From: Segetibacter aerophilus
GTDB taxonomy: Bacteria; Bacteroidota; Bacteroidia; Chitinophagales; Chitinophagaceae
Length of the DNA stretch: 64,000 bases
Direction: 5' to 3'
NCBI RefSeq assembly: GCF_007991655.1
Contig: NZ_BJYT01000012.1
Coordinates: 62,001 to 126,000 of the forward strand
In this document: positions 1,868-62,022 of the stretch, in pieces
Numbering within the stretch: position 1 is the stretch's first letter
Layout of the letters: the number at the start of each line of letters is the position of its first letter
Made by a program: the position numbers and the translations under genes
The notes under the pieces: model-generated
What the model saw: the letters and a program-made list of their open reading frames with translations, nothing else
Databases searched by the model: none
Told to the model about the DNA's origin: nothing

Positions 1868-2003
1868 ATGGAACTGACTTTACTTCGGCTATTTATTGTG
1901 TTGTCGCAAGAGGATGCGGAAAAATGCCCGCAAAAGAATTTGCCCTAAAAAGCTTTAAACTACCACGAGTTGCTCCGGATCAATTTGCTGCCCCAAAGAT
2001 GCA

Positions 2004-2027
2004 GTACAAGTGAGTGACACAACAATG
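2004..2027 (+). repeat. Dispersed intergenic repeat, GTGAGTGACACAACAATG variant
   Basis: GTACAAG followed by TGAGTGACACAACAATG. It is nearly identical to copies at 35864 and 62002, and a diverged form of the GTACAAG-GTGCGACGCAACGATG copies. It lies between purA and rel. Confidence 0.75.
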
Positions 2028-2100
2028 TCGCTTATAGATTCGATTGACGGCAAACACCATATCTTCCTTCATTTCAGAAAAGGCAATAAAAAGTTCTAAA

Positions 2101-4344
2101 CTACTCTGCATCGAAACGATCGACAGTTTGAATGCCTTTGAGCATCTTTAAGCGCTCCACCAATTCTTCCAACTCTTCTTTGTCGTGCACAAATACTTTT
2201 ATGGTTCCTTCAAACAACCCTTCATGAGATTCGATGGCAAGGGCGGCAATATTTATTTTGAGGTCGCCTGATATTACGTTTGTAATCTTGTTTACCACAC
2301 CGACATCATCCATGCCGATGATTTTTAGCCCGGTAAGGAAACTGATCTCCTTATTTTTTGCCCACTTGGTTTTAACTACGCGATGTCCATAATTAGAAAG
2401 CAAACTAGGCGCATTGGGACAGCTTGTGCGATGAATGATTAAACCTTTGCCGGTGCTTACAAAACCAAAAACGTCGTCGCCGGGAATAGGGTTACAGCAC
2501 TTGGCCAAAGTGTACATGATCTTATCGCTGCTCTCGCCAAAAATGATCAGTTCAGAGTCCTTTTTTGAATAGTGTGGGGTAATCTCTGCCGGTACTTCCT
2601 GAACGGGTTTCTGAGGTTTGGGCGGTTCGAGCCTGTCACCCAGTATCTGGAACTCTTTTAATTCTTTTAGATCGATTGCTTTAACCGCAACCTGGTAGTA
2701 AAAATCAAGCTGCGAATGGAATTTGTAAAATGCAACCAGCGTATCAATGTTTTGCTGTGAATAGGCAGCACCTATACCTTCCAGCTTTCGCTGAAGTATG
2801 TATTTTCCTTCTTCGGCAATGGTTCGTTTTACCTCTTTAAGGGCATCCTTTATTTTGTTCTTGGCTTTGGCGGTAACAACAAAGCTGAGCCAATCTTCAC
2901 TTGGCTTTTGCTTGCTGCTTGTAATGATTTCAACCTGGTCGCCGCTGCGGAGTTTATGACTTATCGGAACAAGCTTGTGGTTGATCTTCGCGCCAATACA
3001 TTTTGTACCGATGGCACTATGTATGCTAAAAGCAAAGTCTAATGCTGTGCTTCCAATCGGCAGCATTTTTACATCACCTTTCGGGGTATATACGTAAATT
3101 TCCTCGGCAAGAAAACTGGTCTTAAAATCTTGCAGAAAATCGACCCCGTCTGTGTCCTGTGTATTTAAAACCTCTCGTATCTGGCTAAACCATTTATCAA
3201 AGCGGTCTTCATCTGCTGAGCCTTCTTTGTATTTGTAGTGGGCAGCAAGACCCTTTTCTGCAATTTCGTTCATGCGTTTAGATCGTATCTGCACCTCGAC
3301 CCATTTGCCTTGCGGCCCCATTACTGTAGTATGTAACGCCTCGTAGCCATTGCTTTTGGGATTGCTCAACCAATCTCTTAATCTTTCTGGGGAGGGAGTA
3401 TATTCATCCGTGATAATTGAGTAGACTTTCCAGCAGTGCTCTTTCTCGCGGGCATGAGGCGAATTCAGAATGATTCTAATGGCAAACAAATCGTACACCT
3501 CTTCAAAGGCAACACCTTTTTTCTTTATTTTATTCCAGATTGAATGGATGCTTTTTGGACGGCCGTAAATTTCAAAATCAAATCCACCACTGATCAGTTT
3601 TTCTTTCACCGGCCTGATGAACTCGTTGATATACCTTGTTCGTTCGCGCTTAGTTTCTGCAAGTTTACGGGCAATGTCTTTGTAGGTCTCTGGCTCCATG
3701 TACTTCATCGATAAGTCTTCGAGCTCTGTTTTGATGTTGTACAATCCCATCCGGTGAGCAAGCGGTGCATAGACCCAGACTGTTTCACTTGAGATTTTAA
3801 GCTGCTTTTCGCGCTTCATACTGTCAAGCGTACGCATGTTGTGTAACCGATCAGCAAGCTTAATTAAAATGACCCGCGGATCATCTGTAAGTGTGAGCAA
3901 AATCTTCTTGAAATTCTCCGCCTGCTGACTGGTATTATTATCAATGACGGTAGAGATTTTTGTAAGTCCGTCTACAATCCTGGCTATCTCATGGCCAAAT
4001 TCTCTTTCAACATCTTCAAATGTCAGGTCAGTATCTTCAACAGTATCATGAAGCAGTGCACAAATAGTACTACGGACACCTAAGCCAATTTCTTCCACGC
4101 AAATCATGGCAACGGCAAGTGGATGAATGATGTAAGGTTCACCGCTTTTTCTGCGCATGGTTTTGTGGGCTTCGGCAGCCATCTCAAAAGCATGGCGCAC
4201 CAATTCCTTGTCGCCTTTTTTTAATTTTTCGCGCAATGCCCGAAGCAATGCACGGTAATGGCGCAAAATTTCCTTCTTTTCCTGCTCCTCGTTTAAATTA
4301 TATTTCGGCGTTAACGGTGCCGCTACTATTTCTTGCTCTTCCAT
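2101..4344 (-). CDS. rel: Bifunctional (p)ppGpp synthetase/hydrolase, RelA/SpoT family
   Basis: This protein makes and degrades the alarmone (p)ppGpp in the stringent response. At 747 residues it has the full long-form architecture. The HD hydrolase domain shows His74, His99-Asp100 (ALLHDTVEDT) and Asp165 (IKLADRLHNM). The synthetase domain carries RLRDWLSNPKSNGYEALHTT. A TGS domain starts near EEIYVYTPKGDV, a Cys-rich region has AKCCNPIPGDD, and an ACT domain ends the protein. Intact hydrolase metal ligands indicate that it can both make and remove (p)ppGpp, as expected for the single long Rel enzyme of most Bacteroidota. A near-match -7 element (TAAATTCG on the minus strand, 4350-4357) lies just upstream of the ATG. 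The gene stands alone between the M1 peptidase terminator and a repeat-containing gap. Confidence 0.97.
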   Translation of the reverse strand: MEEQEIVAAPLTPKYNLNEEQEKKEILRHYRALLRALREKLKKGDKELVRHAFEMAAEAHKTMRRKSGEPYIIHPLAVAMICVEEIGLGVRSTICALLHDTVEDTDLTFEDVEREFGHEIARIVDGLTKISTVIDNNTSQQAENFKKILLTLTDDPRVILIKLADRLHNMRTLDSMKREKQLKISSETVWVYAPLAHRMGLYNIKTELEDLSMKYMEPETYKDIARKLAETKRERTRYINEFIRPVKEKLISGGFDFEIYGRPKSIHSIWNKIKKKGVAFEEVYDLFAIRIILNSPHAREKEHCWKVYSIITDEYTPSPERLRDWLSNPKSNGYEALHTTVMGPQGKWVEVQIRSKRMNEIAEKGLAAHYKYKEGSADEDRFDKWFSQIREVLNTQDTDGVDFLQDFKTSFLAEEIYVYTPKGDVKMLPIGSTALDFAFSIHSAIGTKCIGAKINHKLVPISHKLRSGDQVEIITSSKQKPSEDWLSFVVTAKAKNKIKDALKEVKRTIAEEGKYILQRKLEGIGAAYSQQNIDTLVAFYKFHSQLDFYYQVAVKAIDLKELKEFQILGDRLEPPKPQKPVQEVPAEITPHYSKKDSELIIFGESSDKIMYTLAKCCNPIPGDDVFGFVSTGKGLIIHRTSCPNAPSLLSNYGHRVVKTKWAKNKEISFLTGLKIIGMDDVGVVNKITNVISGDLKINIAALAIESHEGLFEGTIKVFVHDKEELEELVERLKMLKGIQTVDRFDAE

Positions 4345-4425
4345 ATGTACGAATTTACGAAAACAGCTGCAATCAAGATCGCGGAAGCAGCATTATGCCG
4401 GGAAATGATGGTTAAGAGAATTGAA

Positions 4426-4451
4426 AAAAGCGGGAAAATTTTCCCGCTTTT
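4426..4451 (-). terminator. Rho-independent terminator of the M1 peptidase gene
   Basis: A perfect 26-bp palindrome (AAAAGCGGGAAAA / TTTTCCCGCTTTT) lies 40 bp beyond the peptidase stop codon, with a T-run on the minus strand. It separates this gene from rel. Confidence 0.85.
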
Positions 4452-4490
4452 AACTCCGATTTTAAATGTGTTTATAAATGCCCGCCTACT

Positions 4491-7738: not shown

Positions 7739-7788
7739 CCAGCTATTGTTTTCATAGCAGCATCATTGCGTCGCAATCAGTTCGTCAG
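7739..7788 (-). repeat. Dispersed intergenic repeat, long form, with perfect 13-bp palindrome
   Basis: This copy contains the perfect palindrome ATTGCGTCGCAAT (7765-7777). On the outer side it has a conserved flank (CCAGCTATTGTTTTCATAGC) that recurs at 35729, and on the inner side GTTCGTCAG. It pairs with the opposite-orientation copy at 7870. Confidence 0.8.
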
Positions 7789-7869
7789 CATATCATTTTG
7801 CGACTTTCCTTTTCTTTCCACGTATAAAGGAATGGGGTTCAAACGATCAATAGAAAACATGCAGTTGCT

Positions 7870-7887
7870 GTGTGCGACGCAACGATG
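7870..7887 (+). repeat. Dispersed intergenic repeat, short form
   Basis: GTGTGCGACGCAACGATG, in the opposite orientation to the copy at 7739. The two enclose about 80 bp and could define a 149-bp element (7739-7887) with inverted ends. Confidence 0.75.
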
Positions 7888-7943
7888 ATTAATTGAAAGA
7901 CAAACGCTGGTACAAAAAGAAACATCCAAATTTTTAGAAATGT

Positions 7944-10013
7944 TTAGACAGCCGGCTCAACCCATGCATCACTTTCTTTTAGCAGCATGATTAATTCTGA
8001 TACAGCTATATCGCTGTTTACATTTCGCTTTACCACCTCTTTACCCCGGTACAAAGTAATCTTTCCAACACCGCTACCCACATAGCCGAAATCTGCATCA
8101 GCCATTTCACCGGGACCATTAACGATGCAACCCATGATAGCAATCTTAACACCCTTTAAATGATTGGTTACTGCACGAATCTTAGCTGTAGTCTCCTGCA
8201 ACTCGAAAAGGGTACGGCCGCAGGAAGGGCACGAGATGTATTCGGTTTTAGAAATGCGGGTACGTGTCGCCTGAAGAATGCTGAAAGCGGTTGAATTAAT
8301 AAACTGTTCAATGGTCGCGTTGTTTAGGTAATTTCTTCCAGAAGCATTGTTTGCTGAAGCACTGTTGTATGCATTGCTGTTCATACCAAGACAAACGCCG
8401 TCACCAAAACCGTCGAGCAAAAGGGCGCCGCATTCGGTTGCATAATGAATGAGATGTTCATCTGCAGTTTGCCAGTAGCTGTCGCAGATGATAACCGCGG
8501 GATTGAGAACGTTTCTAAGTTCTAATTCCATGAACATGCGACGAACTGCGGGCATCGCATGAGGATGAGTGCTGCTAAGGCAAAGCACGACAGTCGGATC
8601 ATTAGCCAGTGCATCTAAATGCGTAAAGTCATTTACAGACGTGGTGTCGTTAAAGCAGTCAATCATTACAAAATTGAGATTGCTTTTTACATCGGCTTTT
8701 ACATAACCACTATCTTGAAATATTGGGAAGTACTTTGTTTTGTCTTCAACCTGCAGCCACGCGTTAGGATACACTATTACCTTTAAAGTGCCTGGTAGCG
8801 CGAAAGACAAAATTTGGCTGCCGGTAAAAACATAGTCTGCAGCAGCATCACTGATAGCCCACTTATCCGTTGCTTCATTATAGGTATAACCAATGCTTTG
8901 TAAATGGGCCGGAGTTATTTTATCAATTTTACTAAAGTCAGCAATTACAACGGGGACGTGTTTTTCGCCAATATTGTCAACAGCAAACGTAGCTCTTCTC
9001 TTATATACAAAAGGGTCGTAAGGAATTTTTTCAACAGGGGGAATGACAGGGGGGACAGTTGACAGTTGATTGTTGTTATATGACAGATTAGTGTTGCTGT
9101 CTGTTATCTTACTTCTGTCATCCGTCATCTTGTTTTCATATCTCTTAACTAGATCACGACAAACCGGTATTTCAAATTCAGGATCTTCTGTAAGGCTGAC
9201 GCGAATAGTATCGCCAATTCCATCTTCGAGCAAAGTGCCAATACCGGCAGCACTTTTAACCCTTCCGTCCTCTCCATCACCGGCCTCGGTAACGCCAAGG
9301 TGTAAAGGATAACATTCGTTAAACTCCTGCATCATTTGCTGAATGAGCAGCCGGTAAGCTTGGACCATGACCTGGGGATTGCTGCTCTTCATGCTAAGCA
9401 CAATACTATGATAACTTTCTGCCCTTGCTATACGTAAAAACTCCATCGCACTTTCAACCATTCCCATCGGCGTGTCGCCGTAGCGGCTCATGATACGATC
9501 GCTTAAACTGCCATGATTGGTGCCGATCCGCATAGCTGTTCCATACTCGCGACAAATTTTTACAAGCGGAGTAAAACGTTCCCTGATACGGTCTATTTCT
9601 TCGTTGTATTCAAGATCGGTGTAATCGATGAATTCAAACTTCTTTTTGTCAACGTAATTACCGGGATTAACACGCACTTTCTCAATAATTCGTGCGGCGA
9701 TTTCGGCTGCATTAGGTGTAAAATGTATGTCTGCAATTAGAGGGGTTGTGTAGCCACGTCTTCTTAGTTCTTCCTTTATGTTGCGAAGATTTTCCGCTTC
9801 ATTTTTACTAGGTGCTGTTATGCGAACCAGCTCAGCACCAGCTTCTATACAACGGATAGTTTGCTCTACTGTACCAATCGTATCCATGGTATCAGTAGTC
9901 GTCATAGTTTGAAGCCTTATTGGATGATTATTGCCTAAGACTAAATCTCCAACTTTGACTTCGCGGGTAGCTAATCTTTTATATTCGGTTAATGAGTTAC
10001 AGTATAGTTGCAT
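7944..10013 (-). CDS. ispG: 4-hydroxy-3-methylbut-2-enyl diphosphate synthase, long three-domain form
   Basis: IspG converts 2-C-methylerythritol 2,4-cyclodiphosphate to HMBPP in the MEP isoprenoid pathway, using a 4Fe-4S cluster. At 689 residues this is the long type, found in Bacteroidota, Chlamydiae and plants, with an extra domain between the TIM barrel and the cluster domain. The N-terminal barrel carries TMTTTDTMDTIGTVEQ and ADIHFTPNAA. The C-terminal domain carries the cluster ligands in CPSCGRTLFELQ and GCIVNGPGEMADAD. Residues 293-323, at the barrel-insert junction, are a hydrophilic Asn/Asp/Ser-rich linker encoded by low-complexity repeat DNA (see the feature at 9041). The gene lies 106 bp beyond batC, separated from it by another low-complexity stretch. 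Confidence 0.96.
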   Translation of the reverse strand: MQLYCNSLTEYKRLATREVKVGDLVLGNNHPIRLQTMTTTDTMDTIGTVEQTIRCIEAGAELVRITAPSKNEAENLRNIKEELRRRGYTTPLIADIHFTPNAAEIAARIIEKVRVNPGNYVDKKKFEFIDYTDLEYNEEIDRIRERFTPLVKICREYGTAMRIGTNHGSLSDRIMSRYGDTPMGMVESAMEFLRIARAESYHSIVLSMKSSNPQVMVQAYRLLIQQMMQEFNECYPLHLGVTEAGDGEDGRVKSAAGIGTLLEDGIGDTIRVSLTEDPEFEIPVCRDLVKRYENKMTDDRSKITDSNTNLSYNNNQLSTVPPVIPPVEKIPYDPFVYKRRATFAVDNIGEKHVPVVIADFSKIDKITPAHLQSIGYTYNEATDKWAISDAAADYVFTGSQILSFALPGTLKVIVYPNAWLQVEDKTKYFPIFQDSGYVKADVKSNLNFVMIDCFNDTTSVNDFTHLDALANDPTVVLCLSSTHPHAMPAVRRMFMELELRNVLNPAVIICDSYWQTADEHLIHYATECGALLLDGFGDGVCLGMNSNAYNSASANNASGRNYLNNATIEQFINSTAFSILQATRTRISKTEYISCPSCGRTLFELQETTAKIRAVTNHLKGVKIAIMGCIVNGPGEMADADFGYVGSGVGKITLYRGKEVVKRNVNSDIAVSELIMLLKESDAWVEPAV
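9041..9131. repeat. Low-complexity TGACAG/CTGTCA repeat inside ispG
   Basis: GACAG or CTGTC words recur at least seven times in 90 bp, including an inverted pair ATGACAGA (9080-9087) and TCTGTCAT (9114-9121). The stretch is read in frame as a flexible linker of IspG. It looks like intergenic repeat DNA that has spread within a tolerant part of the gene. Confidence 0.7.
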
Positions 10014-12811: not shown

Positions 12812-14344
12812 ATGAAACTTTTAAGCCCTGCCATATCGAGATTAGCCAGATTTAGGCTTTGGAGAATTGAACATTGGATGAATAATCCGGTCTCTGTTCA
12901 ATTCGAATTATTGCAGGATTTGATCACTTCAGCCCAGTACACAGAAATCGGTCGGAGGTATGGATTTGAAAAATTGTACACCCTTAAAAGTTTCAAAGAA
13001 GCTGTTCCTATCCACGAATACGATGACCTGAAACCTTACATCGAACGGTGCATGCAGGGCGAACAGAATCTTTTATGGAACACACCCATTACCTGGTTTG
13101 CTAAAAGCAGTGGCACTACAAGTGAAAAAAGCAAGTTCATTCCTGTCTCAGAGGAAAGCCTTGGGGAAAGCCACTTCCAGGGTACAAAAGACGTCCTGAC
13201 TTTATACTACAATTACAACCCTGATAGTGATCTTTTGATGGGCAAGGGCCTTGTCATTGGTGGCAGCCACCAGGTCAGTAAACTAAATGAAGAAGCCCAG
13301 TTTGGAGATCTGAGCGCTGTGCTAATGCAGAACACTCCTTTTTGGGGCCATTGGTTACGCACCCCTGAGTTGTCAATTGCCCTATTGGATGAATGGGAAA
13401 CTAAGATCGAAAAACTTGCCGAAACCACCATTGTTGAAAACGTTACCAGCATCAGCGGCGTCCCGACCTGGACTTTGGTTTTAATAAAAAGGATACTTGA
13501 AATAACAGGAAAGCAAACTTTGAAAGAAGTCTGGCCAAATCTGGAACTCTATATTCATGGCGGTGTGTCTTTTACACCTTATCGAGAGCAATTTGAGAAA
13601 CTGATAGGAGCTCCCATTAACTACATTGACCTTTATAATGCAAGCGAAGGTTTTTTTGCAGCACAAAATAATCCGGATGAAGAAGGCATGTTGCTGTTTT
13701 TGCAACACGGCATTTTTTACGAGTTTATGCCCGTGGAAGAATATGGCAAGGAAAACCCTCAAACCTTGCAACTCGATGAAGTTGAGCTCGGAAAAAACTA
13801 TGCTGTGGTTATAAGCTCCAACGGTGGGTTATGGCGTTACCTTATTGGCGACACTGTTCAGTTTGTATCGAAGGCTCCATTTAAAATTAAAGTGTCAGGC
13901 CGCATCAAACACTTCATTAATGCTTTTGGCGAAGAGGTAATCGTTGATAATTCTGACCGTGCGATTGCCGTGGCAAGTGAAAAAACGGGGGCAATCGTAA
14001 AAGATTATACTGCCGCCCCCATCTATTTTAGCGAACGCGGAAACGGGGGCCACGAATGGTTGGTTGAATTTGAAAAAGCACCTTCAGATCTCGGCTTGTT
14101 TACTTACGAATTAGACACCGCTTTGAAAAACGTCAACAGCGATTATGAAGCAAAGCGACATAAGGACATTGCTTTGAAAATGCCGGTTGTTCATGCTTTA
14201 AATAAATGCGTTTTTGAAGAATGGTTAAGAAGCAAGGGCAAGCTCGGCGGTCAGCATAAGGTACCACGGCTAAGTAACGATCGAAAGTATATCGAAGAGA
14301 TTCTTGCGATTGCCAACGGCGAAAAAGCAAACAAGTGTTTTTGA
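12812..14344 (+). CDS. GH3-family (auxin-responsive GH3-like) adenylating enzyme
   Basis: A 510-residue member of the GH3 family. In plants these enzymes activate hormone carboxylates such as jasmonate or auxin with ATP and join them to amino acids. The ATP-binding loop SSGTTSEKSKFIPVS lies near residues 99-113. The second motif, YNASEGFFAAQN, corresponds to the family YASSEG signature, and GLWRYLIGDTVQF matches the third motif. Bacterial members are common in Bacteroidota, but their substrates are largely unknown; a carboxylate-amine ligase is the family-based inference. No signal peptide or membrane segment is seen. The gene is alone and divergent from the beta-lactamase, with both promoters inside the same 157-bp gap. 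The start is set by the -7 motif at 12789. Confidence 0.9.
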   Translation: MKLLSPAISRLARFRLWRIEHWMNNPVSVQFELLQDLITSAQYTEIGRRYGFEKLYTLKSFKEAVPIHEYDDLKPYIERCMQGEQNLLWNTPITWFAKSSGTTSEKSKFIPVSEESLGESHFQGTKDVLTLYYNYNPDSDLLMGKGLVIGGSHQVSKLNEEAQFGDLSAVLMQNTPFWGHWLRTPELSIALLDEWETKIEKLAETTIVENVTSISGVPTWTLVLIKRILEITGKQTLKEVWPNLELYIHGGVSFTPYREQFEKLIGAPINYIDLYNASEGFFAAQNNPDEEGMLLFLQHGIFYEFMPVEEYGKENPQTLQLDEVELGKNYAVVISSNGGLWRYLIGDTVQFVSKAPFKIKVSGRIKHFINAFGEEVIVDNSDRAIAVASEKTGAIVKDYTAAPIYFSERGNGGHEWLVEFEKAPSDLGLFTYELDTALKNVNSDYEAKRHKDIALKMPVVHALNKCVFEEWLRSKGKLGGQHKVPRLSNDRKYIEEILAIANGEKANKCF

Positions 14345-14375
14345 TAAAGCGTTCGTTGCAATATTTGTAATGGTA

Positions 14376-14426
14376 CAGGCAGAAGTTTTCCATAGCCTCA
14401 TTCTTGCGTCGCATTCCGTTCGTCTG
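14376..14426 (-). repeat. Dispersed intergenic repeat, long form
   Basis: CAGGCAGAAGTTTTCCATAG, then TTGCGTCGCATTCCGTTCGTCTG. The outer flank is shared with the copy at 19826. It lies downstream of the GH3 gene. Confidence 0.75.
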
Positions 14427-14486
14427 TAAACCTTTGTGCAGCTTGTCCATAAGGCATTTTCACTCCAGCTAATTTTACCAATTCTA

Positions 14487-15119
14487 ATGCTTCGACTTAC
14501 TAACGTTCAGAAATATTACGGAGGTTTTTTAGCAATAGATATCCCTTCACTATTTATTGAGGAAGGCCTATGGTGGGTGCAGGGAGAAAATGGTTCCGGT
14601 AAAACCACTTTCCTTAAAATGATTGCCGGTCTCCATCCTTTTAATGGAACGATTTCTCTCAACAATCTAACGATCACAAAGCAACGCCAGCAATTTGTAA
14701 AGCTGGTTAATTATGCAGAAGCGGAACCATTGTATCCTTCATTTCTCACGGCAAGAGATCTAGTCGAACTGTATTGTCAAACAAAAGGCGGGGATATATT
14801 ATTTGCGCAGGAATTATTAAAACAGCTTCATGTTTTTGACGCATATACTCAATCAATCGGAACCTATTCAAGTGGCATGATAAAGAAGGTAAGTCTCGCA
14901 CTTGCGTTTATCGGACAACCTAAAATAATACTGCTCGACGAGCCCTTAATAACGATTGATGCAAGTGCAGTAAATGCAATTTGTACAATGATTAATGATA
15001 GTTATAAAAAGGGCGTCTCTTTCATCATTACCTCTCACCAAGCAGTACGAAGTGAGCAACTAGGATTTACCGGAAAGCTTTTAGTTGAAAACAGAACGAT
15101 TCACAAAAACAGCGAATGA
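14487..15119 (+). CDS. ABC transporter ATP-binding protein
   Basis: A 210-residue nucleotide-binding subunit. The Walker A motif is GENGSGKTT, the ABC signature is YSSGMIKKVS, Walker B is IILLDEP, and the H-loop is in SHQ. It powers the transporter whose membrane part is encoded by the next gene, which overlaps it by 4 bp (ATGA). Single-domain ATPase plus polytopic partner indicates an ABC-2-like exporter; the cargo is unknown. The start at 14487 (MLRLTNVQ) was chosen over an upstream TTG because it begins at the first strand of the fold. A near-match -7 element (TAATTTTA, 14470-14477) precedes it by 9 bases. Confidence 0.92.
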   Translation: MLRLTNVQKYYGGFLAIDIPSLFIEEGLWWVQGENGSGKTTFLKMIAGLHPFNGTISLNNLTITKQRQQFVKLVNYAEAEPLYPSFLTARDLVELYCQTKGGDILFAQELLKQLHVFDAYTQSIGTYSSGMIKKVSLALAFIGQPKIILLDEPLITIDASAVNAICTMINDSYKKGVSFIITSHQAVRSEQLGFTGKLLVENRTIHKNSE

Positions 15120-16213
15120 GGAAAGCGCTTGCTATACTGCAAAAGGTTTTAGTAAATTATTTCTTTCGAGTTAACGCAGGGCTATTCATGTTTGCATTTT
15201 TCGTTTTATTCGGGCTGCCTTATTCGGTGCTTGCGTTTCATTACTCTTTGATTACAGGTGTCGTTCAGAGCCAAACATTTTTGGCGCTGGTAATGGTGGT
15301 TTGGCTGCTTTATAATATCAAGTGCGTCGACTACATAAGTAAACAGTTAAAACATCAACACCAGTCTTTTTTGTTTTGCCTCAATTGTTTGCCCGATAAA
15401 AAAAATTATCTCCTGCAGTTGTATGTACAGGTGCAAGTGTACATGCCTGTTCTGCTGTATTCTATAGCTATTGTAGCGATAGCTCTTAAACAGCATCATT
15501 ATTTAGCTGCTATCGAAGTAATACTCTTTAACTTGATGGTGCTGGTGCTGACACCTTTTTTATATCTGAAGGTTTTGCAACGAAAACCTTTAAACTATAA
15601 AGGGCTCGCAATTCCATCATTGGGGTTAGAATTACGTAAGCCGTATTTTTTATATCCTCTGTATTTTCTTCTAAAAGATCGAAAGCAAATGCTATTAATA
15701 ACAAAGATTTTTTCTCTCTTGTTATTATATGGCTTCATACAATTATACCAGCCTGAAAGAGCTGATATAAGACCCGTTCAGCTTTGCCTTCTAATTACTG
15801 CCGCCGCTCATTGTGCCATCGTTTTTGAGGTAAGAATGTTTGAGGATGAATATTTACAATTCAGCAAAAACCTGCCAATAACGTTGATTGGTCGTTTTTT
15901 TAAATCGATTGCCTTGTATCTAATCCTGCTTTTGCCGGAAATGGTTTTCTTGCTTAAGGGAATTCATACCCAGTTTTCGATCTATAATTACCCACAACTA
16001 GTATTAATGTTAATTGCCCTGATCTGTATGTTTCATGTAGTGTTGCTATTAGAGAAAACGAACATGGAGCAGTTCATCAGAATTGTTTTTGCCATTAGTG
16101 CTGCTTGCTTTTTTGTAATACTCTACGACCCGGGTGTTTTGCTTGCAGCGATGATTTTGGCTTTAGCTTTTGTTCTTTACAGCTCTTATTTTTATCAATA
16201 CGAAAAACAATGA
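15116..16213 (+). CDS. Polytopic membrane subunit of an ABC exporter
   Basis: A 365-residue, very hydrophobic protein with roughly eight to ten predicted membrane segments (for example around residues 15-40, 47-65, 108-125, 130-150, 190-208, 215-235, 255-275, 285-305 and 320-355). I do not recognise a named domain. Its 4-bp overlap with the ATPase gene shows that the two are co-translated and makes it the membrane partner of that ATPase. It contains FKNLP-like and KNLPI stretches next to a membrane segment, as in ABC-2 type permeases whose ATPase and permease are separate. Substrate unknown. Confidence 0.75.
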   Translation: MRKALAILQKVLVNYFFRVNAGLFMFAFFVLFGLPYSVLAFHYSLITGVVQSQTFLALVMVVWLLYNIKCVDYISKQLKHQHQSFLFCLNCLPDKKNYLLQLYVQVQVYMPVLLYSIAIVAIALKQHHYLAAIEVILFNLMVLVLTPFLYLKVLQRKPLNYKGLAIPSLGLELRKPYFLYPLYFLLKDRKQMLLITKIFSLLLLYGFIQLYQPERADIRPVQLCLLITAAAHCAIVFEVRMFEDEYLQFSKNLPITLIGRFFKSIALYLILLLPEMVFLLKGIHTQFSIYNYPQLVLMLIALICMFHVVLLLEKTNMEQFIRIVFAISAACFFVILYDPGVLLAAMILALAFVLYSSYFYQYEKQ

Positions 16214-16285
16214 AAATGTGCTTTTGGTGTTTATTGTTCCGGAGACAATAATGGTTTTGCAGGGTTGCTGATGAGAGAATAAAAT

Positions 16286-16309
16286 GTACAAGAGTGCGAC
16301 GCAACGATG
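16286..16309 (+). repeat. Dispersed intergenic repeat, short form
   Basis: GTACAAG followed by AGTGCGACGCAACGATG. It lies 12 bases before the -7 element of fabG. Confidence 0.75.
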
Positions 16310-16320
16310 TTCAATTTATT

Positions 16321-16328
16321 TACTTTTG
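16321..16328 (+). promoter_or_regulatory. Promoter -7 element for fabG
   Basis: TACTTTTG, a full match to TAnnTTTG, 25 bases before the ATG at 16354. Confidence 0.6.
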
Positions 16329-19179: not shown

Positions 19180-19814
19180 CATCATACGAAAAATTATTAT
19201 TAGAAAATAAAGCATGGGCAACGGAAAAGGTAGAAGATGATCCTGAGTTCTTTTCACGGTTAGAGCATTTGCAAACACCCGAGTTCTTGTGGATCGGTTG
19301 CAGCGACAGCCGTGTTCCTGCAAATGAAATTACCGGAACGCAGCCAGGTGAAATCTTTGTTCATCGCAACATTGCCAACCTGGTAATCAATACCGATGTT
19401 AATTTATTGAGCGTACTTGAATATGCAGTGTCGGTACTTAAAGTAAAACACATAATTATTTGCGGGCACTATGGTTGCGGCGGCGTAAAAGCTGCGCTTA
19501 CAAATAACGACCATAAGCAGGTTCTTAACATGTGGCTACGAAACATAAAAGATGTGTATCGTCTGCACCGGGCAGAACTTGACAAGCTGGGTGAAGGAGA
19601 CGAAAGGGTTAACCGGCTAATTGAATTAACGGTAAAAGAGCAGGTAATGAACCTTGCAAAAACTTCCATTGTACAAAAAGCGTGGAAGGAGGAAAACCGG
19701 CCTCACCTACATGGCTGGGTGTACAGTCTTTCTAATGGGTTGATAAATCCAATTTTCGAGATGGAAGCAGGAACTCATATAGATCCTGTTTATGAATACG
19801 AGAACTTTCGCTAG
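19176..19814 (+). CDS. can: Beta-class carbonic anhydrase
   Basis: A 212-residue zinc enzyme that interconverts CO2 and bicarbonate. The zinc ligands and catalytic dyad are visible: Cys42, Asp44 and Arg46 in CSDSR, and His98 and Cys101 in HYGCGG. It has no signal peptide, so it works in the cytoplasm. It overlaps the SulP transporter gene by 4 bp (ATGA), so the two are translated together, and a strong hairpin terminator follows about 100 bp later. Together they probably supply bicarbonate for carboxylation reactions such as purine and fatty acid synthesis when CO2 is scarce. Confidence 0.96.
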   Translation: MTSYEKLLLENKAWATEKVEDDPEFFSRLEHLQTPEFLWIGCSDSRVPANEITGTQPGEIFVHRNIANLVINTDVNLLSVLEYAVSVLKVKHIIICGHYGCGGVKAALTNNDHKQVLNMWLRNIKDVYRLHRAELDKLGEGDERVNRLIELTVKEQVMNLAKTSIVQKAWKEENRPHLHGWVYSLSNGLINPIFEMEAGTHIDPVYEYENFR

Positions 19815-19825
19815 TTTTTTTGGGT

Positions 19826-19877
19826 CAGGCAGAAGTTATTCTATGAAGCTTCTCTTGCGACGCAGTACGTTCATCTG
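19826..19877 (-). repeat. Dispersed intergenic repeat, long form
   Basis: CAGGCAGAAGTTATTCTATG, then CTTGCGACGCAGTACGTTCATCTG. It lies between the carbonic anhydrase stop and the terminator. Confidence 0.7.
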
Positions 19878-22074: not shown

Positions 22075-22124
22075 TTAGAGTTGAAATAATACGCGTTGAA
22101 AAAGCAACAATAGAATTATAAGAG

Positions 22125-22147
22125 TTGAACGGAGCGTCGCAAGGATG
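22125..22147 (+). repeat. Dispersed intergenic repeat, GAACGGAGCGTCGCAA form
   Basis: TTGAACGGAGCGTCGCAAGGATG, in the gap between comEC and purH. Confidence 0.7.
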
Positions 22148-22206
22148 CTGAACGTTGTTGCTATCGTTTGTCAATTTAAAAAACACTGCTTTTAATCTTA
22201 CCAAAC

Positions 22207-23733: not shown

Positions 23734-23757
23734 TCTGAACCGTGATTTAAAAGATTT

Positions 23758-23806
23758 AAGGATTTGGAGGAAAGGGTGCCTATTTACTTCTATCCTCCAA
23801 ATCCTT
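23758..23806. terminator. Bidirectional stem-loop between purH and the deacetylase gene
   Basis: A perfect 14-bp stem (AAGGATTTGGAGGA / TCCTCCAAATCCTT) with a 21-base loop, placed between two convergent genes. The arms are made of low-complexity GATTTAAGGATTT words like those near 55364. Confidence 0.7.
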
Positions 23807-23811
23807 TAATC

Positions 23812-25268: not shown

Positions 25269-25316
25269 TTAATGTTCTTCTCAATAACAATTGTAGAAAG
25301 CAAAATAGCATTTCAA

Positions 25317-25342
25317 CTGACGAACGGAGCATCGCAACGATG
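25317..25342 (+). repeat. Dispersed intergenic repeat, GACGAACGGAGC form
   Basis: CTGACGAACGGAGC then ATCGCAACGATG. It lies between the 40-codon gene and the LutB-like gene. Confidence 0.75.
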
Positions 25343-25377
25343 ATTAACCAAAGTTGCAAAGTCTGCCACAAAACATC

Positions 25378-26757: not shown

Positions 26758-26838
26758 GATTTAAGTCATTAATAATTTATAAATACTAATTCTTTCGTTT
26801 TATTTTCTTTGGTGCCAACCCTTCGAAGCTCTATTAAG

Positions 26839-26862
26839 CTTCGTTGCGTCGCACTCTTGTAC
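26839..26862 (-). repeat. Dispersed intergenic repeat, short form
   Basis: On the minus strand GTACAAG, then AGTGCGACGCAACGAAG. Same form as the copy at 16286. It lies between the DUF3109 and LutB-like genes. Confidence 0.75.
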
Positions 26863-26876
26863 GTTTAAATCTTTAC

Positions 26877-31612: not shown

Positions 31613-31650
31613 CAGACGAACGAAATGCGTCGCAACAGGTGCGTCATAGA
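31613..31650 (+). repeat. Dispersed intergenic repeat, long form
   Basis: CAGACGAACGAAATGCGTCG, then CAACAGGTGCGTCATAGAAG. It lies between the thiolase terminator and the tolC-like gene; the rest of that 292-bp gap shows nothing else clear. Confidence 0.7.
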
Positions 31651-31791
31651 AGAACGAATGTTTGGAACAAAAAAGGGGTCTTTTTAAAAAGATTTGAAAT
31701 TTTTATTTTAAATCCGATAACTTTTGGGCGATTTTGATGGGCTCGTTTCAGGTGTAAAAGATTTATTGAGTAATTAATTATTATTTCTTTC

Positions 31792-35719: not shown

Positions 35720-35728
35720 ATGTTCATA

Positions 35729-35778
35729 CCAGCAATTGTTCTCATAGCGTCATCGTTGCGTCGCAATCCCTTTATCAG
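35729..35778 (-). repeat. Dispersed intergenic repeat, long form
   Basis: CCAGCAATTGTTCTCATAGC, then CATCGTTGCGTCGCAATCC. It shares the outer flank of the copy at 7739. With the opposite copy at 35864 it encloses about 85 bp, giving a 159-bp element between convergent gpsA and hemW. Confidence 0.8.
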
Positions 35779-35863
35779 TTGTAATTCTTATCGGCTTTTT
35801 TCCACGTAGAACTGGAGGTTCCCCGTTTACGACAACTGCTGAAAAGCCCAATAAAGATGTAGG

Positions 35864-35887
35864 GTACAAGTGAGTGACACAACAATG
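35864..35887 (+). repeat. Dispersed intergenic repeat, GTGAGTGACACAACAATG variant
   Basis: GTACAAG then TGAGTGACACAACAATG, identical over 24 bases to the copy at 2004. Confidence 0.8.
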
Positions 35888-35917
35888 CCGGAATGAGTTG
35901 GATGGCTTGGACAATAA

Positions 35918-46614: not shown

Positions 46615-46620
46615 CCTCGG

Positions 46621-46683
46621 TTTTTCATAGGATATTGGATTTTAAAAACGGGGCTGGATGTTTATCCTGGCCCCTTTGTTTTT
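46621..46683 (+). ncRNA. Candidate small RNA of about 60 nt
   Basis: A promoter-like pair ends 7 bases before this point, and a GC-rich hairpin with T-run ends it at about 46682. No coding frame lies between. It resembles no RNA family I know, and it may be no more than terminator-proximal spacer. Confidence 0.3.
46650..46682. terminator. Bidirectional terminator between uvrC and the candidate small RNA
   Basis: A GGGGC / GCCCC stem extended by GGAT / ATCC with a bulge, with T-runs on both strands (CCCCTTTGTTTTTT on plus, CCCCGTTTTT on minus). It lies just past the uvrC stop. Confidence 0.7.
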
Positions 46684-46684
46684 T

Positions 46685-52487: not shown

Positions 52488-52520
52488 AGTTTGAGCTATT
52501 AAAAGCAACATTGATGTAAA

Positions 52521-52546
52521 CAGATGAATGGAGCGTCGCAACAATG
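52521..52546 (+). repeat. Dispersed intergenic repeat, GATGAATGGAGCGTCGCAA form
   Basis: CAGATGAATGGAGCGTCGCA then ACAATG. It lies between convergent usp and nadE. Confidence 0.7.
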
Positions 52547-52582
52547 CCGATACCTTCAACGACGTTGGTAACAAAAAAATAA

Positions 52583-54265
52583 CTACGAAAGATACTTGCC
52601 GACTATAGGAACCCGTCTGCCAACTCCGAATGCTTTAGGGCTAACTCTTATTATCGGGCAAAATTGATTTCGTTTATATTCATTGCTGTTTACAAGCTTC
52701 AGGATCCGATCAACTACTGCAGCATCAAAACCAAGTTCCTTGATTTCTGAAGGTCCTTTTCGCCGCTCGATATATTGATACAGCACCTTATCGAGAATAG
52801 AATATTCGGGCAGACTATCCGCATCCTTTTGATCCGGTCTTAGCTCGGCACTGGGGGCCTTATGAATAATATTATCAGGTATAATTTCTCCATCCCGGTT
52901 TATGTATTCCGCAAGGGCGTACACCTGCAATTTGTAGCAGTCGCCTAACACTCCAATCCCTCCAGCCATATCGCCATAGAGCGTTCCGTACCCCGTTGCC
53001 AGTTCGCTTTTGTTTGATGTGTTGAGTAAGATGTAGCCGAACTTATTTGCAATACTCATAAGCAGGTTACCGCGGCTACGGCTTTGAATGTTTTCTTCTG
53101 CAATACTAAAAGGGAGGTCTTTGAAAATTGGTTTTAGCGTAGCAAGAAAAGCCTCATACACCTGTGTGATCTTAATGATATCGTAAGGGTTTTGAAGGTT
53201 TTCGCTTAGCCTGACAGCATCGTTCACAGAATGTTCAGTACTATAAGGCGAAGGCATTAGGATTGCCCGAACATTGTCTTTTCCCAGCGCTTCGCATGCC
53301 AAAGCCAAGGTTACTGCACTATCAATTCCACCAGATGAACCTAGGATTGCTTTCGTGAAACCCATCTTGGTGAAATAATCTTTTATGCCATGAACGAGTG
53401 CTGTATAAATGCCCTTGATATTAAGGTTTGGATCATATTGGGCAGGATTTGGTTTAATGTGAGAAATAGGTTTGATGTTATCAACAGCAATTTCTTCGAT
53501 AGTTCCATCATCGTGTAAAGTTGCTCCGGCAATTGCTTCCTGGAAAGACGGTAAGCACTTGCTAAGGTTTCCTTCTTTGTCAAATACGAGAGAAGCGCCA
53601 TCAAATACAATTTCTGTCTGGCTTCCCACTGCATTGCAATAGAACATCGGCAGTTTATACTTAATGACGTTTGCTTTTATGACCGACTTTCTTTCTTCTT
53701 CGTGTATATAATCGAAAGGAGAAGCACTTAGGTTAATCATGAGGTCTGGCTGCTGCTCCATTAATTTATCCATCGGGCAGATGCGATACAAGGGGTTGTC
53801 GTTGATGTTCCAAATGTCTTCACAGATGGTTACGGCTAGTCTTTTTCCTTTAAACTCAAGTACATGCCATTCAAAGGCAGGCTCGAAATAACGGTACTCA
53901 TCGAAGATGTCGTAAGTGGGTAGCAGCGTCTTATGTATTTCGCCTTTAATCTCTTTTTCGTATAAAAGAAAAGCAGCATTAAAAAGGTCTTTACCTTCTA
54001 TGGCAGGGTTTCTTGCCGGGGAGCCTACCAATACTCCAATCGTATCAGCATGTTGTTTTATCTCGTCAATTGCCTGGTAGCACCTGTTTATAAAATCATT
54101 GAATTCCACAAAATCCCGGGGAGGATAACCACATATGCACAGCTCGCTAAAAACCACCAGGTCTGCTCCCTGGCTTTTAGCTTCGTTTATCGCAGAAATT
54201 ATTTTTTCGGTATTTTTTTCAAAATTGCCTATGTGATAATTCTGTTGGGCCAATACAATCTTCAT
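52583..54265 (-). CDS. nadE: Glutamine-dependent NAD+ synthase
   Basis: A 560-residue two-domain enzyme that makes NAD+ from nicotinate adenine dinucleotide, using ammonia from glutamine. The N-terminal nitrilase-like glutaminase domain (1-260) carries the catalytic Glu in VFSELCICGYPP, Lys in IHKTLLPTYD and Cys in VTICEDIWN. The synthetase domain has the pyrophosphatase loop ILGSSGGIDSAVTLALA near 313 and TSNKSELATGYGTLYGDMAG. nadC, an earlier step of the same pathway, is at 61019. The gene is divergent from gldB, as in several Bacteroidota. Confidence 0.96.
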   Translation of the reverse strand: MKIVLAQQNYHIGNFEKNTEKIISAINEAKSQGADLVVFSELCICGYPPRDFVEFNDFINRCYQAIDEIKQHADTIGVLVGSPARNPAIEGKDLFNAAFLLYEKEIKGEIHKTLLPTYDIFDEYRYFEPAFEWHVLEFKGKRLAVTICEDIWNINDNPLYRICPMDKLMEQQPDLMINLSASPFDYIHEEERKSVIKANVIKYKLPMFYCNAVGSQTEIVFDGASLVFDKEGNLSKCLPSFQEAIAGATLHDDGTIEEIAVDNIKPISHIKPNPAQYDPNLNIKGIYTALVHGIKDYFTKMGFTKAILGSSGGIDSAVTLALACEALGKDNVRAILMPSPYSTEHSVNDAVRLSENLQNPYDIIKITQVYEAFLATLKPIFKDLPFSIAEENIQSRSRGNLLMSIANKFGYILLNTSNKSELATGYGTLYGDMAGGIGVLGDCYKLQVYALAEYINRDGEIIPDNIIHKAPSAELRPDQKDADSLPEYSILDKVLYQYIERRKGPSEIKELGFDAAVVDRILKLVNSNEYKRNQFCPIIRVSPKAFGVGRRVPIVGKYLS

Positions 54266-55477: not shown

Positions 55478-55486
55478 AAACCTTCC

Positions 55487-55873: not shown

Positions 55874-56043
55874 GTGAGGCAGTTTTAGTAAAAATAAAGA
55901 AATTTTTAAATGTGCTTATACTATTTATGCAAAGACTTTACCAAATTGTTCTTCGCTGCTTTAGTACGAAAAATGTCCTTTTTTGGCTTTTATTATATAG
56001 GTTGCCTAAGAAGAGTTGGTGCGGGAAACAAGCGTGTGCCGGT

Positions 56044-56086
56044 AGCATTTTTGTACTTCAGTACAAGTGTGCGACGCAACGATGCT
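56044..56086 (+). repeat. Dispersed intergenic repeat with palindromic extension
   Basis: GTACAAG and TGTGCGACGCAACGATG (56061-56084) are preceded by an inverted TTGTACTTC, so that TTGTACT pairs with AGTACAA; outer AGCAT and ATGCT also pair. This copy may show a complete hairpin form of the element. Confidence 0.75.
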
Positions 56087-56159
56087 GAGTTCATATTTAT
56101 TGCTGGCAACTAAAGCATTACTATGTGAGAATTTAGATATGTAGTGAGTATACATAACT

Positions 56160-56167: not shown

Positions 56168-56200
56168 CCACCAGAAAATAATTACTTTAAAACATTACAT

Positions 56201-57655: not shown

Positions 57656-57757
57656 AGAAGGCTGCGGGCTACGAACCTCGAGCTCTCAGTTTTTGTTGTC
57701 TTCTGTTGTTGTTTGAGCTTGTTGTTTATTTTAACCAGCAATGGAGCATAAAGGTAG

Positions 57758-57776
57758 CATCGTTGCGACGCTCCGT
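57758..57776 (-). repeat. Dispersed intergenic repeat, AACGGAGCGTCGCAACGATG form
   Basis: On the minus strand AACGGAGCGTCGCAACGATG, the closest copy to the family consensus of this form. The rest of the 231-bp gap shows no gene. Confidence 0.75.
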
Positions 57777-57886
57777 TTTAGCGGTGGAATTCTTATCAGC
57801 TTTTACCGGGTTATGAGTTGTTAACTTTTGCTATAGCCGTTTTTAGTAAGCCAACAAAATGTACTTTTATTACCTAATTTAGTAGA

Positions 57887-58432: not shown

Positions 58433-58466
58433 CTTTAGATGTTTTTAGAGGATTTATTTAATTACA

Positions 58467-59570: not shown

Positions 59571-59592
59571 CTTAAAGCTTGCAGCTGTTTTC

Positions 59593-60585: not shown

Positions 60586-60634
60586 TTTGGTCTTCGGTCC
60601 TCGTATGCGTTCTGAAATATTTTCAATGAATTTT

Positions 60635-60979: not shown

Positions 60980-61018
60980 TGATGTTTAATTGAAAAGGTT
61001 GTTTGGCCCTGATAGTCT

Positions 61019-61876
61019 TTATATCTCAGCTTTCAAACTTAAATCAAGGCTTTTTGCCTGGTGAATTAAAGCTCCTACACTAATGTAATCAACTCCTGTT
61101 TTGGCGTATTTAACTATGTTCTGCAAATTGATTCCGCCGCTTGCTTCCGTTTCAAATCTTTTATTAATCAGGCCGACTGCCTCCGTTATTTCTGATGGTT
61201 TAAAATTGTCGAGCATTACCCGGAATACTTTTCCATCTCCCATCTGTATTACTTTTTTTACGTCGGCAAGACTGCGGGTTTCTACTTCTATTTTCAGACC
61301 TGGCTTTTTAGTTTGCACATAGTCCCATGCTTTATTGATCGCGCTTTCAATACCTCCTGCGAAATCGATGTGGTTATCTTTTAGCATGATCATATCGTAC
61401 AAAGCGTAGCGGTGGTTTGTACCGCCTCCAATCTTTACGGCTTCCTTTTCAAGCAATCTGAAGTTAGGTGTTGTCTTTCGGGTATCTAGAATTTTTGTGC
61501 TATAATCTTTTATAGTATCAGCGTATTGCCGGGTTAAAGTTGCTATACCACTCATTCTTTGCATGATATTAAGCACCAACCTTTCACACTTTAAAATGGT
61601 ATGAACTGTTGCCTCTACAACAAAAGCTTTCTCGCCATACACCATCAACTCGCCATCTTTTTTATACGAAGTGAAAGTTACTGAAGGCTCTACGAGTGTA
61701 AAGATTTTTTCCGCAACGGAAAGGCCTGCTAAAACGCCATCTTGTTTGATTTTTAAAACTGCTTTTCCTCTCGCATTCGGGGCTATACAACTAAGTGTTG
61801 AATGATCTCCATCGCCTATGTCTTCGTTTAATGCTTCAATAATTAAATGCTGTAGCATTTCATCATAACTATTCAT
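61019..61876 (-). CDS. nadC: Nicotinate-nucleotide pyrophosphorylase (carboxylating)
   Basis: A 285-residue enzyme that converts quinolinate and PRPP to nicotinate mononucleotide in de novo NAD synthesis. LNEDIGDGDHSTLSCI opens the protein; LVLNIMQRMSGIATLTRQY, DTRKTTPNFRLLEKEAVKIG, GGGTNHRYALYDMIMLKDNH and the C-terminal VDYISVGALIHQAKSLDLSL are all family hallmarks. The open frame begins at 61996, but the ATG at 61876 gives the normal length and follows a full -7 motif (61882-61889). nadE, the last step of the pathway, is at 52583. Confidence 0.96.
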   Translation of the reverse strand: MNSYDEMLQHLIIEALNEDIGDGDHSTLSCIAPNARGKAVLKIKQDGVLAGLSVAEKIFTLVEPSVTFTSYKKDGELMVYGEKAFVVEATVHTILKCERLVLNIMQRMSGIATLTRQYADTIKDYSTKILDTRKTTPNFRLLEKEAVKIGGGTNHRYALYDMIMLKDNHIDFAGGIESAINKAWDYVQTKKPGLKIEVETRSLADVKKVIQMGDGKVFRVMLDNFKPSEITEAVGLINKRFETEASGGINLQNIVKYAKTGVDYISVGALIHQAKSLDLSLKAEI

Positions 61877-61881
61877 AAAAA

Positions 61882-61889
61882 CAAAGCTA
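61882..61889 (-). promoter_or_regulatory. Promoter -7 element for the nadC operon
   Basis: TAGCTTTG on the minus strand, a full consensus match, 5 bases before the chosen ATG and inside the longer frame. The leader would be very short. Confidence 0.5.
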
Positions 61890-62001
61890 CAAACTGTTGG
61901 AACATGAACGGTGGGATCGGAAGAGATAAAAGAAGCGATGCGGCTACTTTGACAAAGCATCTCCACACATAAGCTTGAAGTCGAATAAAGAATCAACTAT
62001 A

Positions 62002-62022
62002 AAAGTGAGTGACACAACAATG
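62002..62022 (+). repeat. Dispersed intergenic repeat, GTGAGTGACACAACAATG variant
   Basis: AAAGTGAGTGACACAACAATG, the third copy of this variant (others at 2004 and 35864). It lies upstream of nadC. Confidence 0.75.

Follow-up and report, generated by a model that had tools for sequence, protein, structure and literature searches.

The 64-kb stretch of the Segetibacter aerophilus genome analysed here (the window) encodes a ComEC homologue and carries sixteen copies of a short repeated element. An nhmmer profile derived from the genome recovered all sixteen positions listed in a first-pass annotation, with E values from 1e-12 to 0.012; the next best match in the window had an E value of 6.2. 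Matches to TTGCGTCGCAA with up to two mismatches numbered 40, against 18.4 +/- 5.3 in shuffled sequences, and none of 100 shuffles reached 40. The copies sort into classes. Class A is found at 16267-16328 (plus strand, E 2e-10), 26805-26875 (minus, 9.7e-12) and 56054-56120 (plus, 3.5e-12), with a class A-like copy at 7842-7923 (plus, 1.1e-12). Class A' (GTACAAGTGAGTGACACAACAATG) lies at 1998-2057 (E 1.2e-9), 35846-35917 (4.3e-10) and 61980-62054 (3.6e-8), all on the plus strand, and class B (GACGAACTGATTGCGACGCAATGATG) at 7739-7807 (4.1e-7), 14364-14443 (6.2e-7) and 35728-35775 (5.2e-7), all on the minus strand. The class B copies at 7739 and 35728 form close pairs with those at 7842 and 35846, respectively, the first pair being divergent. 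Class C (GTTGAACGGAGCGTCGCAAGGATG) is represented at 22102-22181 (plus, 6.4e-8), 52508-52583 (plus, 9.1e-7) and 57724-57805 (minus, 1.4e-8), with a class C-like copy at 25309-25379 (plus, 2.9e-5). The weakest copies are those at 31622-31673 (plus, 0.012), with a GCGTCGCAACAGGT core, and at 19814-19875 (minus, 6.3e-4), a divergent member with a GCGTCGCAAGGAAG core.

The repeat family and its core were correctly recognised at the outset, as was a separate three-copy class (GTGAGTGACACAACAATG), but the extent had been drawn too short and the left arms, given as two, fall into at least five classes. The element spans about 75-85 nt and consists of an A-rich left flank, a left arm, the GYGWCRCAACGATG core, a spacer and a GCTGGTA-AAAAA right end. 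The core is dyad-like, GYGWCRC, and is followed by CAACGATG; A-rich stretches lie on both sides, and peaks of A frequency around the core recur, as judged by eye, about every 10 nt. The most numerous class in the genome, 94 of 220 copies, has a GTGACAC core. Types of left arm go with types of right arm, with some mixing; spacers and flanks differ from copy to copy, and unlike classes share only about 7 nt.

Hundreds of intergenic copies of this tag are present in soil bacteria related to Segetibacter. In the window's own genome, of which 1.257 Mb out of 5.89 Mb was scanned, the profile returned 220 copies at E <=0.05, the best match in the reversed-sequence control having an E value of 0.44. 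Genome-wide, GCGACGCAACGATG with at most one mismatch was matched 223 times and its reversed pattern once. Genes were called with our own ORF scorer, and by these calls none of the sixteen window copies lies inside a gene, as had been claimed. Some overlap the end of an ORF by 1 to 17 nt, and the copy at 14364-14443 overlaps a mechanical 105-aa ORF (14133-14450), on the strand opposite to the longer genes, which is taken as spurious. Overall, copies are nearly missing from genes (2 of 454). Of 59 gaps in the congener G201 that measure 220-450 nt, 51 contain a copy. The right side of the element points towards the nearer gene in 328 of 438 scored copies, with little dependence of orientation on gene strand. 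Copies lie near stop codons (median distance 53 nt) and often abut them with one fixed side, as a transcription terminator or some other 3' signal might. Such a role is highly improbable, since the element forms no hairpin (see below), is common in divergent gaps that hold no 3' end (77 of the 438) and is nearly balanced in orientation in tandem gaps (153 vs 116).

Core-anchored ungapped copies of each class, analysed with RNAalifold on both strands, gave either no structure or a stem of at most 3 bp. Base-pair covariation is strongest for two pairs of positions, 1 and 5 in the core, which are four nucleotides apart (z 6.2), and -9 and -2 (z 5.2); both pairs separate classes and neither makes a helix. 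The window contains no Rfam match at gathering threshold, and a search of 20 kb of G201 at E <=1 returned one match, which was non-credible. The earlier suggestion of an RNA processing signal is not supported by these results. Interiors of 38 close divergent pairs yielded two similar pairs and no common interior. The lack of a fold and of common interiors rules out a hairpin REP, a structured RNA and a MITE.

A REP-like element that a Y1 transposase (RAYT) moves in trans, also proposed in the first-pass annotation, would likewise be intergenic, abundant and patchy among related species, and Y1 genes were found in 10 of the 14 genomes searched first and in 7 of 7 further congeners. This origin is nevertheless very unlikely, as the element has no hairpin and Y1 genes do not track its copies. 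The four genomes without a Y1 match (G141, G172, G122 and G081) hold 154 (on one contig), 49, 2 and 0 motif copies, while 7 Y1 matches accompany 5 copies in one genome and 2 accompany 1010 in another. The window's genome has three Y1 genes, none of them flanked on each side by a copy within 1.5 kb. Among all loci fetched, 4 of 49 (1/24 and 3/25) are doubly flanked, each by a minus-plus pair (L197, L241, L247 and L248), but three of the four come from G200 and G201, two dense genomes with a background of one copy per 2-4 kb. The Y1 genes are, by eye, of several kinds with palindromes of their own. Spacers and flanks of the element differ between copies, and decayed copies are not in evidence: degraded cores in non-coding DNA numbered 304, against 357 in the reversed control. 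GTAG REPs, REPINs and BIMEs associated with RAYTs resemble the element in being intergenic and abundant; they differ in having an imperfect hairpin of 20-40 nt with an unpaired GTAG-type tag and in tracking Y1 genes, and the alternation described below for the element extends across genes to about 2 kb. BIME clusters are described as REPs in alternating orientation (PMC2817692). CGTC-tagged REPs, which have been reported in Bacteroidetes too, are described as intergenic, devoid of a dedicated transposase and arranged as head-to-head dimers (PMC3733652). They are stem-loops with a CGTC end and a CCA-like tail; the element does not fold, and no stem-loop with such an end was found in it. An exact 20-mer of the element was not found in viral contigs and one copy with its flanks (56040-56130) had no match in plasmids or phages; a phage or plasmid origin was rejected.

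Comparison with G198, a relative at about 80% DNA identity, showed that 9 of the 9 window copies tested (1998, 7739, 7842, 14364, 16267, 52508, 56054, 57724 and 61980) have kept their place and strand, with the class of the copy at 1998 also retained. The core is best kept (94% identical, ungapped), compared with 29-48% in the outer flanks. The copy at 1998 has no neighbour within 1.9 kb to its left or 5 kb to its right, yet it is conserved; to the left of the copy at 52508, at a distance of about 110 nt, G198 has an additional copy on the opposite strand. The copy at 22102 has a counterpart of the same class in the same gap and on the same strand in G172, and alignment with G098 places a class A' copy at the position and on the strand of the class A copy at 26805. 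Among more distant congeners, the site was missing in 7 of 11 comparisons. Copy number within the genus ranges from 5 (in G196) to 1010, so that the element is not essential. The lack of a hairpin, the dyad-like core and maintenance in place between species make the putative binding site of a DNA-organising protein the best fit among the three roles originally suggested.

Copies lie on both strands, as had been noticed, but the strands are not random: 12 of the 15 neighbouring pairs in the window alternate. Pairs of copies were counted over portions of three Segetibacter genomes: 1.257 Mb out of 5.89 Mb for the window's own, 300 kb for G201 (the profile having been rebuilt from matches within that genome) and 380 kb for G200. 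Of the pairs less than 1.5 kb apart, 95 were on opposite strands and 3 on the same strand, where about 88 of each are expected if placement is uniform. By genome, in the same order, there were 0, 1 and 2 same-strand and 28, 52 and 15 opposite-strand pairs. Shuffling the orientations of the 98 pairs gave 48.9 +/- 4.8 same-strand pairs, the lowest of 2000 shuffles being 33, and position in the gap does not account for the deficit, 41.9 +/- 4.6 same-strand pairs being expected given the geometry and 3 seen. Since opposite-strand pairs occur at the expected rate, like orientation is excluded and pairing is not favoured; only inside one gap do opposite pairs exceed chance, and their agreement in class is at chance as well (30 of 95, vs 28.1 of 88.3 expected). 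One of the three surviving pairs lies in a 1.2-kb "gap" (contig C6 of G201, 8723-9903) with matches in relatives, which may hold an uncalled gene. Same-strand pairs recover at about 3 kb. Same-strand spacing is regular in G201 (mean 3.9 kb, CV 0.37), less so in G200 (CV 0.51) and only weakly in the window's own genome (CV 0.91), which is sparser. In further sets, same-strand and opposite-strand pairs below 1.5 kb numbered 0 and 7 (G025), 2 and 15 (G141), 0 and 11 (named Segetibacter loci) and 7 and 37 (named loci outside Segetibacter); these sets, which include 80 of 116 named loci, partly overlap, some loci lying within the G025, G098 and G201 genomes, and are not independent. Other genera lean towards the same opposite-strand bias. 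Each tag appears to be read in a single direction by some agent, and strand-specific exclusion on the kilobase scale is a genome-scale sign of a directional process, measurable in any genome with no more than its sequence.

Exclusion also operates between unlike classes, and homology is excluded as its cause because these have only about 7 nt in common. Other 12-mer repeats in non-coding DNA, 250-1500 nt apart, comprised 557 direct and 90 inverted pairs; direct repeats in general are not purged and a deleting agent must therefore know the element. Deletion by homology or slippage was ruled out by these two results. A dedicated recombinase, resolvase-like, could instead delete the DNA between direct copies, so that direct neighbours within about 2 kb would not persist while inverted ones would be left untouched. 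This explanation, which we hold to be doubtful, fits the selective absence of direct pairs across classes, the control just described and the mixed arm types, such as exchange at a common core would give. Where two genes are separated by an unmatched gene, the pair was out of synteny in 21 of 27 cases with an element in between, over longer intervals, and in 1 of 3 without. Against it, synteny breaks are not significantly enriched at element gaps between direct neighbours (9/32 vs 13/63, Fisher p 0.45, one contig-end case dropped), in G198 four stretches bounded by inverted copies have retained colinearity, one flip was seen across element gaps against eight conserved pairs, the sites stay in place between species, and the three like-oriented pairs that survive below 1.5 kb each join two different classes. 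Were direct copies deleted after all, a novel recombination system acting at hundreds of chromosomal sites would be indicated.

The scrambled gene order of contig C6 of G201 suggested a rearrangement hotspot; the effect was not significant for neighbouring genes. Mobile "minus-gene-plus" cassettes were likewise rejected, given that interiors are not common, that housekeeping genes seem, by eye, to lie inside and that members of a pair agree in class no more often than by chance; in G198, moreover, the segment 14364-16267 has become shorter by gene decay within it, not by loss of a unit. Two observations had suggested such cassettes. Homologues were found for 7 of 47 genes between minus and plus copies vs 32 of 91 (p 0.016, in about 2 Mb of relatives; the former genes are shorter). 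Three such segments on contig C11 of G201 had no match in four relatives, among the matches listed. For one of them the flanking genes are adjacent in three of the four relatives, for the other two in none.

Where both gaps beside a gene hold one copy, the two point towards the gene in 34 cases and away from it in 47, and in only 6 does one point towards it and the other away; alternation acts across genes over distances of up to about 2 kb. The same pattern would arise if each element were a domain wall or insulator, marking with a definite polarity the border between two types of chromosomal segment, as an anchor of small loops or as a barrier to transcription or to a DNA-coating protein, since successive boundaries must then alternate. 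The bias of the right side towards the nearer gene, the filled gaps of G201 and the slight dependence on gene strand agree with such a boundary. We consider it unlikely: opposite pairs are at chance except inside one gap, with no sign that partners are needed, the lone copy at 1998 is conserved too, and both kinds of segment seem, by eye, to contain housekeeping genes.

The reading that we prefer, with a probability of roughly one in three, is that the element is a polar, double-stranded recognition site for a putative directional protein or machine, our bet being a tag for strand-reading DNA uptake or recombination. Its copies would be long-lived functional sites inherited in place rather than active transposons. 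If the putative machine reads the element in one direction, one site per direction every 2-4 kb or so could suffice; a second like-pointing site within reach would add nothing or do harm and would not be kept, whereas an opposite-pointing site would serve the other direction and might be anywhere. In favour of a recognition site we count the polar exclusion and the like bias in the further sets, the regular spacing in G201, maintenance in place, the lack of an excess of degraded cores, the lack of a hairpin, the 10-nt periodicity of the A peaks and the ComEC homologue. Against it, ComEC is widespread, USS and Chi differ from the element in the ways set out below, copy number varies from 5 to 1010 within the genus, redundancy alone should leave decaying surplus copies, of which there is no excess, sites are often missing in distant congeners and spacing regularity is weak in the window's own genome. 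By extension, though only tentatively, the tag may partition chromosomes, irrespective of gene direction, into stretches that alternate in sense, with a quasi-regular array on each strand (one site about every 3.9 kb in the densest genome) read by an undescribed directional machine, short genes hardly ever having two like-facing tags beside them. Should it serve uptake or recombination, self-recognition tags would extend to a phylum for which, among the papers listed and judging by titles and opening lines of abstracts, none was found described.

Chi, like the element, is polar, reaches over kilobases and occurs on each strand once in a few kb. Its sites measure 5-8 nt, are not confined to gaps and lie in genes, and the element is nearly missing in some congeners, such as G196. 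Chi stimulates recombination in one orientation through RecBCD/AddAB; directional spacing is the sole feature of the element compatible with such an action. The uptake sequences of Pasteurellaceae (USS) and Neisseriaceae (DUS) share with it the genome-wide abundance of a short core, hundreds to about 1000 copies, a core that does not vary, flanks that are A/T-rich and weaker, and inverted pairs lying close together near the ends of genes. Their copies are spaced more evenly than random, a trait that the element shows in G201 and less so in G200, but weakly in the window's own genome. The element differs in its length (a 24-nt core plus arms), in its near absence from genes and in a spacing rule that is separate for each strand. 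Uptake through USS is reported to be independent of orientation, and 65% of the Haemophilus influenzae copies are in ORFs, unlike those of the element (PMC1939737). The classes of the element are dialect-like. Dialects of DUS are known, and the abundance of both USS and DUS has been built up by biased recombination.

A search profile for the element was seeded with 90 matches and refined by iteration; it recovered all 16 copies that the first-pass annotation had listed in the window. Their strands, in order (+ - + - + - + + - + - + + + - + in the profile search), agree with the claim that copies lie on both. Counted genome-wide, a 14-mer with one mismatch gave 107 + 116 matches, compared with 1 + 0 when the pattern was reversed, and the profile found 220 copies (E ≤0.05) in 1.257 Mb of the source genome (5.89 Mb, 79 contigs; family Chitinophagaceae). 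From left to right, the element comprises an A-rich stretch, a left arm, the core GYGWCRC, CAACGATG or a near match, a spacer of about 20 nt separating the core region from GCTGGTA, and an A-run. Rather than the two left arms initially described, five can be listed: GTACAAGWGT, GTACAAGTGA, GATGAACGRATT, GACGAAGTGATT and GTTGAACGGA. Three recurrent spacer types cover 90 of 215 copies in the source genome, the other 125 falling outside them; left types and spacer types are correlated (chi-square p between 1e-7 and 0.008 in each of four sets), yet mixed. By eye, A frequency peaks roughly every ten bases, at about -32, -22, -12, +8, +18, +29 and +43. The top covarying pairs (1 with 5, -9 with -2) distinguish classes and form no helix. 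Different copies do not have their flanks or interiors in common.

Across three genomes whose sequence is 76-81% coding, 2 of 454 copies have their midpoint in an ORF. Of the 438 copies scored by gap type, 269 lie in tandem, 92 in convergent and 77 in divergent gaps, and in 328 of the 438 the right side points toward the nearer gene, regardless of which gene end this is. Strand bias is small on long contigs (65 plus and 60 minus on C1, 37 plus and 25 minus on C2).

Copies facing the same way exclude each other in a manner that is orientation-specific, blind to class, effective over about 2-3 kb and largely independent of gene strand. Strand alternated between adjacent copies in 104/120 cases in the densest Segetibacter genome, G201, in 75/94 in a second dense genome, G200, and in 145/214 in the source genome. 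When pair counts from these three genomes were pooled and resolved by distance, only 3 like-oriented pairs were seen at ≤1.5 kb against 88 expected, with depletion extending to 3 kb. When strands were shuffled 2000 times, 48.9 ± 4.8 pairs closer than 1.5 kb were like-oriented (minimum 33), and an expectation conditioned on position in the gap gave 41.9 ± 4.6, in both cases against the 3 seen. All three lie in gaps without a called gene; pairs spanning a called gene were opposite in 45 cases and like in none. Convergent pairs were scarce at 100-750 nt, approximately gene length (1 versus 19 expected), and four overlapped at less than 100 nt. Divergent pairs were near expectation overall, with a surplus at 100-250 nt within single gaps (33 versus 4.5). 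Where a gene had one copy in each flanking gap, both copies faced it in 34 cases, neither in 47 and one only in 6. Opposite-to-like ratios below 1.5 kb were 7:0 in genome G025, 15:2 in genome G141, 11:0 at named Segetibacter loci and 37:7 at named non-Segetibacter loci, the weakest exclusion among these sets; the named-locus ratios come from 80 of 116 named loci, each chosen for an exact motif and partly overlapping the genome sets.

Homology between copies can be ruled out as the excluding agent. Class A' and GCGACGC copies share a median longest run of 7 nt and 42% identity, and A' paired with other classes gave 1 like pair against 42 expected. Moreover, control 12-mers repeated 250-1500 nt apart in non-coding DNA of the same three genomes were direct in 557 cases and inverted in 90. 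Since dissimilar classes exclude one another while other 12-mers are mostly direct, the excluding agent must recognise the element itself. The sixfold direct excess of the 12-mers suggests local duplications in gaps.

Two kinds of agent fit the polarity rule. One is a directional reader, to which another site facing the same way within reach would be redundant or harmful. Such a reader fits the regular same-strand spacing in G201 (mean 3.9 kb, CV 0.37), the maintenance of copies in place and an anatomy resembling that of USS. However, spacing in the source genome is irregular (CV 0.91), which counts against it, and known USS are said (PMC1939737) to act in either orientation, whereas exclusion here is orientation-specific. 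The other, a recombinase deleting between direct sites only, would also be compatible with an exclusion limited to like orientation, and predicts rearrangement footprints. However, synteny of neighbouring genes was broken at 9/32 element gaps and 13/63 other gaps, a difference that is not significant, and G198, the nearest relative found (long matches 77-85% identical), is colinear with the window across the segments that inverted copies enclose. Scored by an unmatched gene between the pair, 21/27 element intervals and 1/3 others were broken, the two sets differing in interval length. Gene order on contig C6 of G201 (locus L290) is disrupted almost gene by gene relative to both the source genome and G198.

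The comparison of syntenic gaps with G198 covered 9 of the 16 window copies, and all nine keep place, strand and class. Ungapped identity fell from 94% (core) through 82% (left arm) to 29-48% (outer flanks), where indels depress the values; the gap at 57724 has well conserved DNA farther out. Occupancy was less constant in two congeners that are more distant, G098 and G172, where the site was absent in 7 of 11 gap comparisons; the site of copy 26805 has kept its place but switched class between the window and G098. Half-decayed cores, which continual insertion followed by decay would leave behind, showed no excess in non-coding DNA (304 versus 357 in the reversed control). Together with the in-place copies in G198, this argues against an active mobile element. 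In G198 (locus L353 versus window 14436-16213), decay has left a short remnant of the ABC-transporter genes flanked by copies 14364 and 16267, both of which persist.

The suggestion of a REP-like element moved by a RAYT transposase was not borne out: stems are limited to 3 bp at most in every class and on both strands, and the number of RAYT-type (Y1) genes does not follow that of copies. There are seven Y1 matches in the sparse congener G196 (5 copies) versus two, one broken, in G201 (1010 copies), three in the source genome and none in G172, G122, G081 or G141 (one contig). Flanking by the element, proposed as a check, was found at a minority of Y1 genes: a copy lay within about 1.5 kb of 8 of the first 24 loci (E ≤0.01; two loci share one copy), on both sides only at L197, and at 8 of 25 further loci (E ≤0.05), on both sides at L241, L247 and L248. 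These last three belong to G201 and G200, where the background is one copy per 2-4 kb. All four doubly flanked loci show the minus-plus arrangement. In the source genome, the Y1 gene of L003 (C4:1-3102) lies amid several copies of two other repeats, with CCGGACTGTGTCCGG and CTCCGTAGTCGTCCTTCGGAACACTACGGAG units, which are probably its own REPs; the Y1 genes of L001 and L002 adjoin short repeats (GGTAGCCCTTACAGGGC and GACCCCTTCGGGGTC units) unrelated to the element.

The exact motif occurs in 70 of 195 genomes sampled from the family. Nineteen of the 70 hold at least 10 copies (maximum 279), and the counts of the remainder are close to those of the reversed control (one match in each of 8 genomes). 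A slightly wider motif was present in all ten genomes of the genus, with exact counts of 5, 26, 57, 61, 166, 367, 478, 525, 582 and 1010. The element's 20-mer was absent from the viral contigs searched, and one copy with its flanks had no match among plasmid or phage records. No description of the element was found in the open-licence literature searched on Segetibacter or Bacteroidetes repeats, REP/RAYT, uptake sequences, alternating orientation or Chi, including PMC3733652, PMC6006769, PMC1939737 and PMC7811141, nor was any open-licence paper found on Chitinophagaceae intergenic repeats.

Within the window, a gene for a ComEC-type competence protein (19987-22074; PF03772, PF13567) lies between copies 19814 (minus) and 22102 (plus). 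A long inverted repeat at 23724-23840 (51-nt arms, 75% complementary, 15 nt apart) sits where two convergent genes meet at their 3' ends. The stretch at 46619-46684 (about 65 nt), which matches at least two places in each of four relatives, is another dispersed repeat, distinct from the element.
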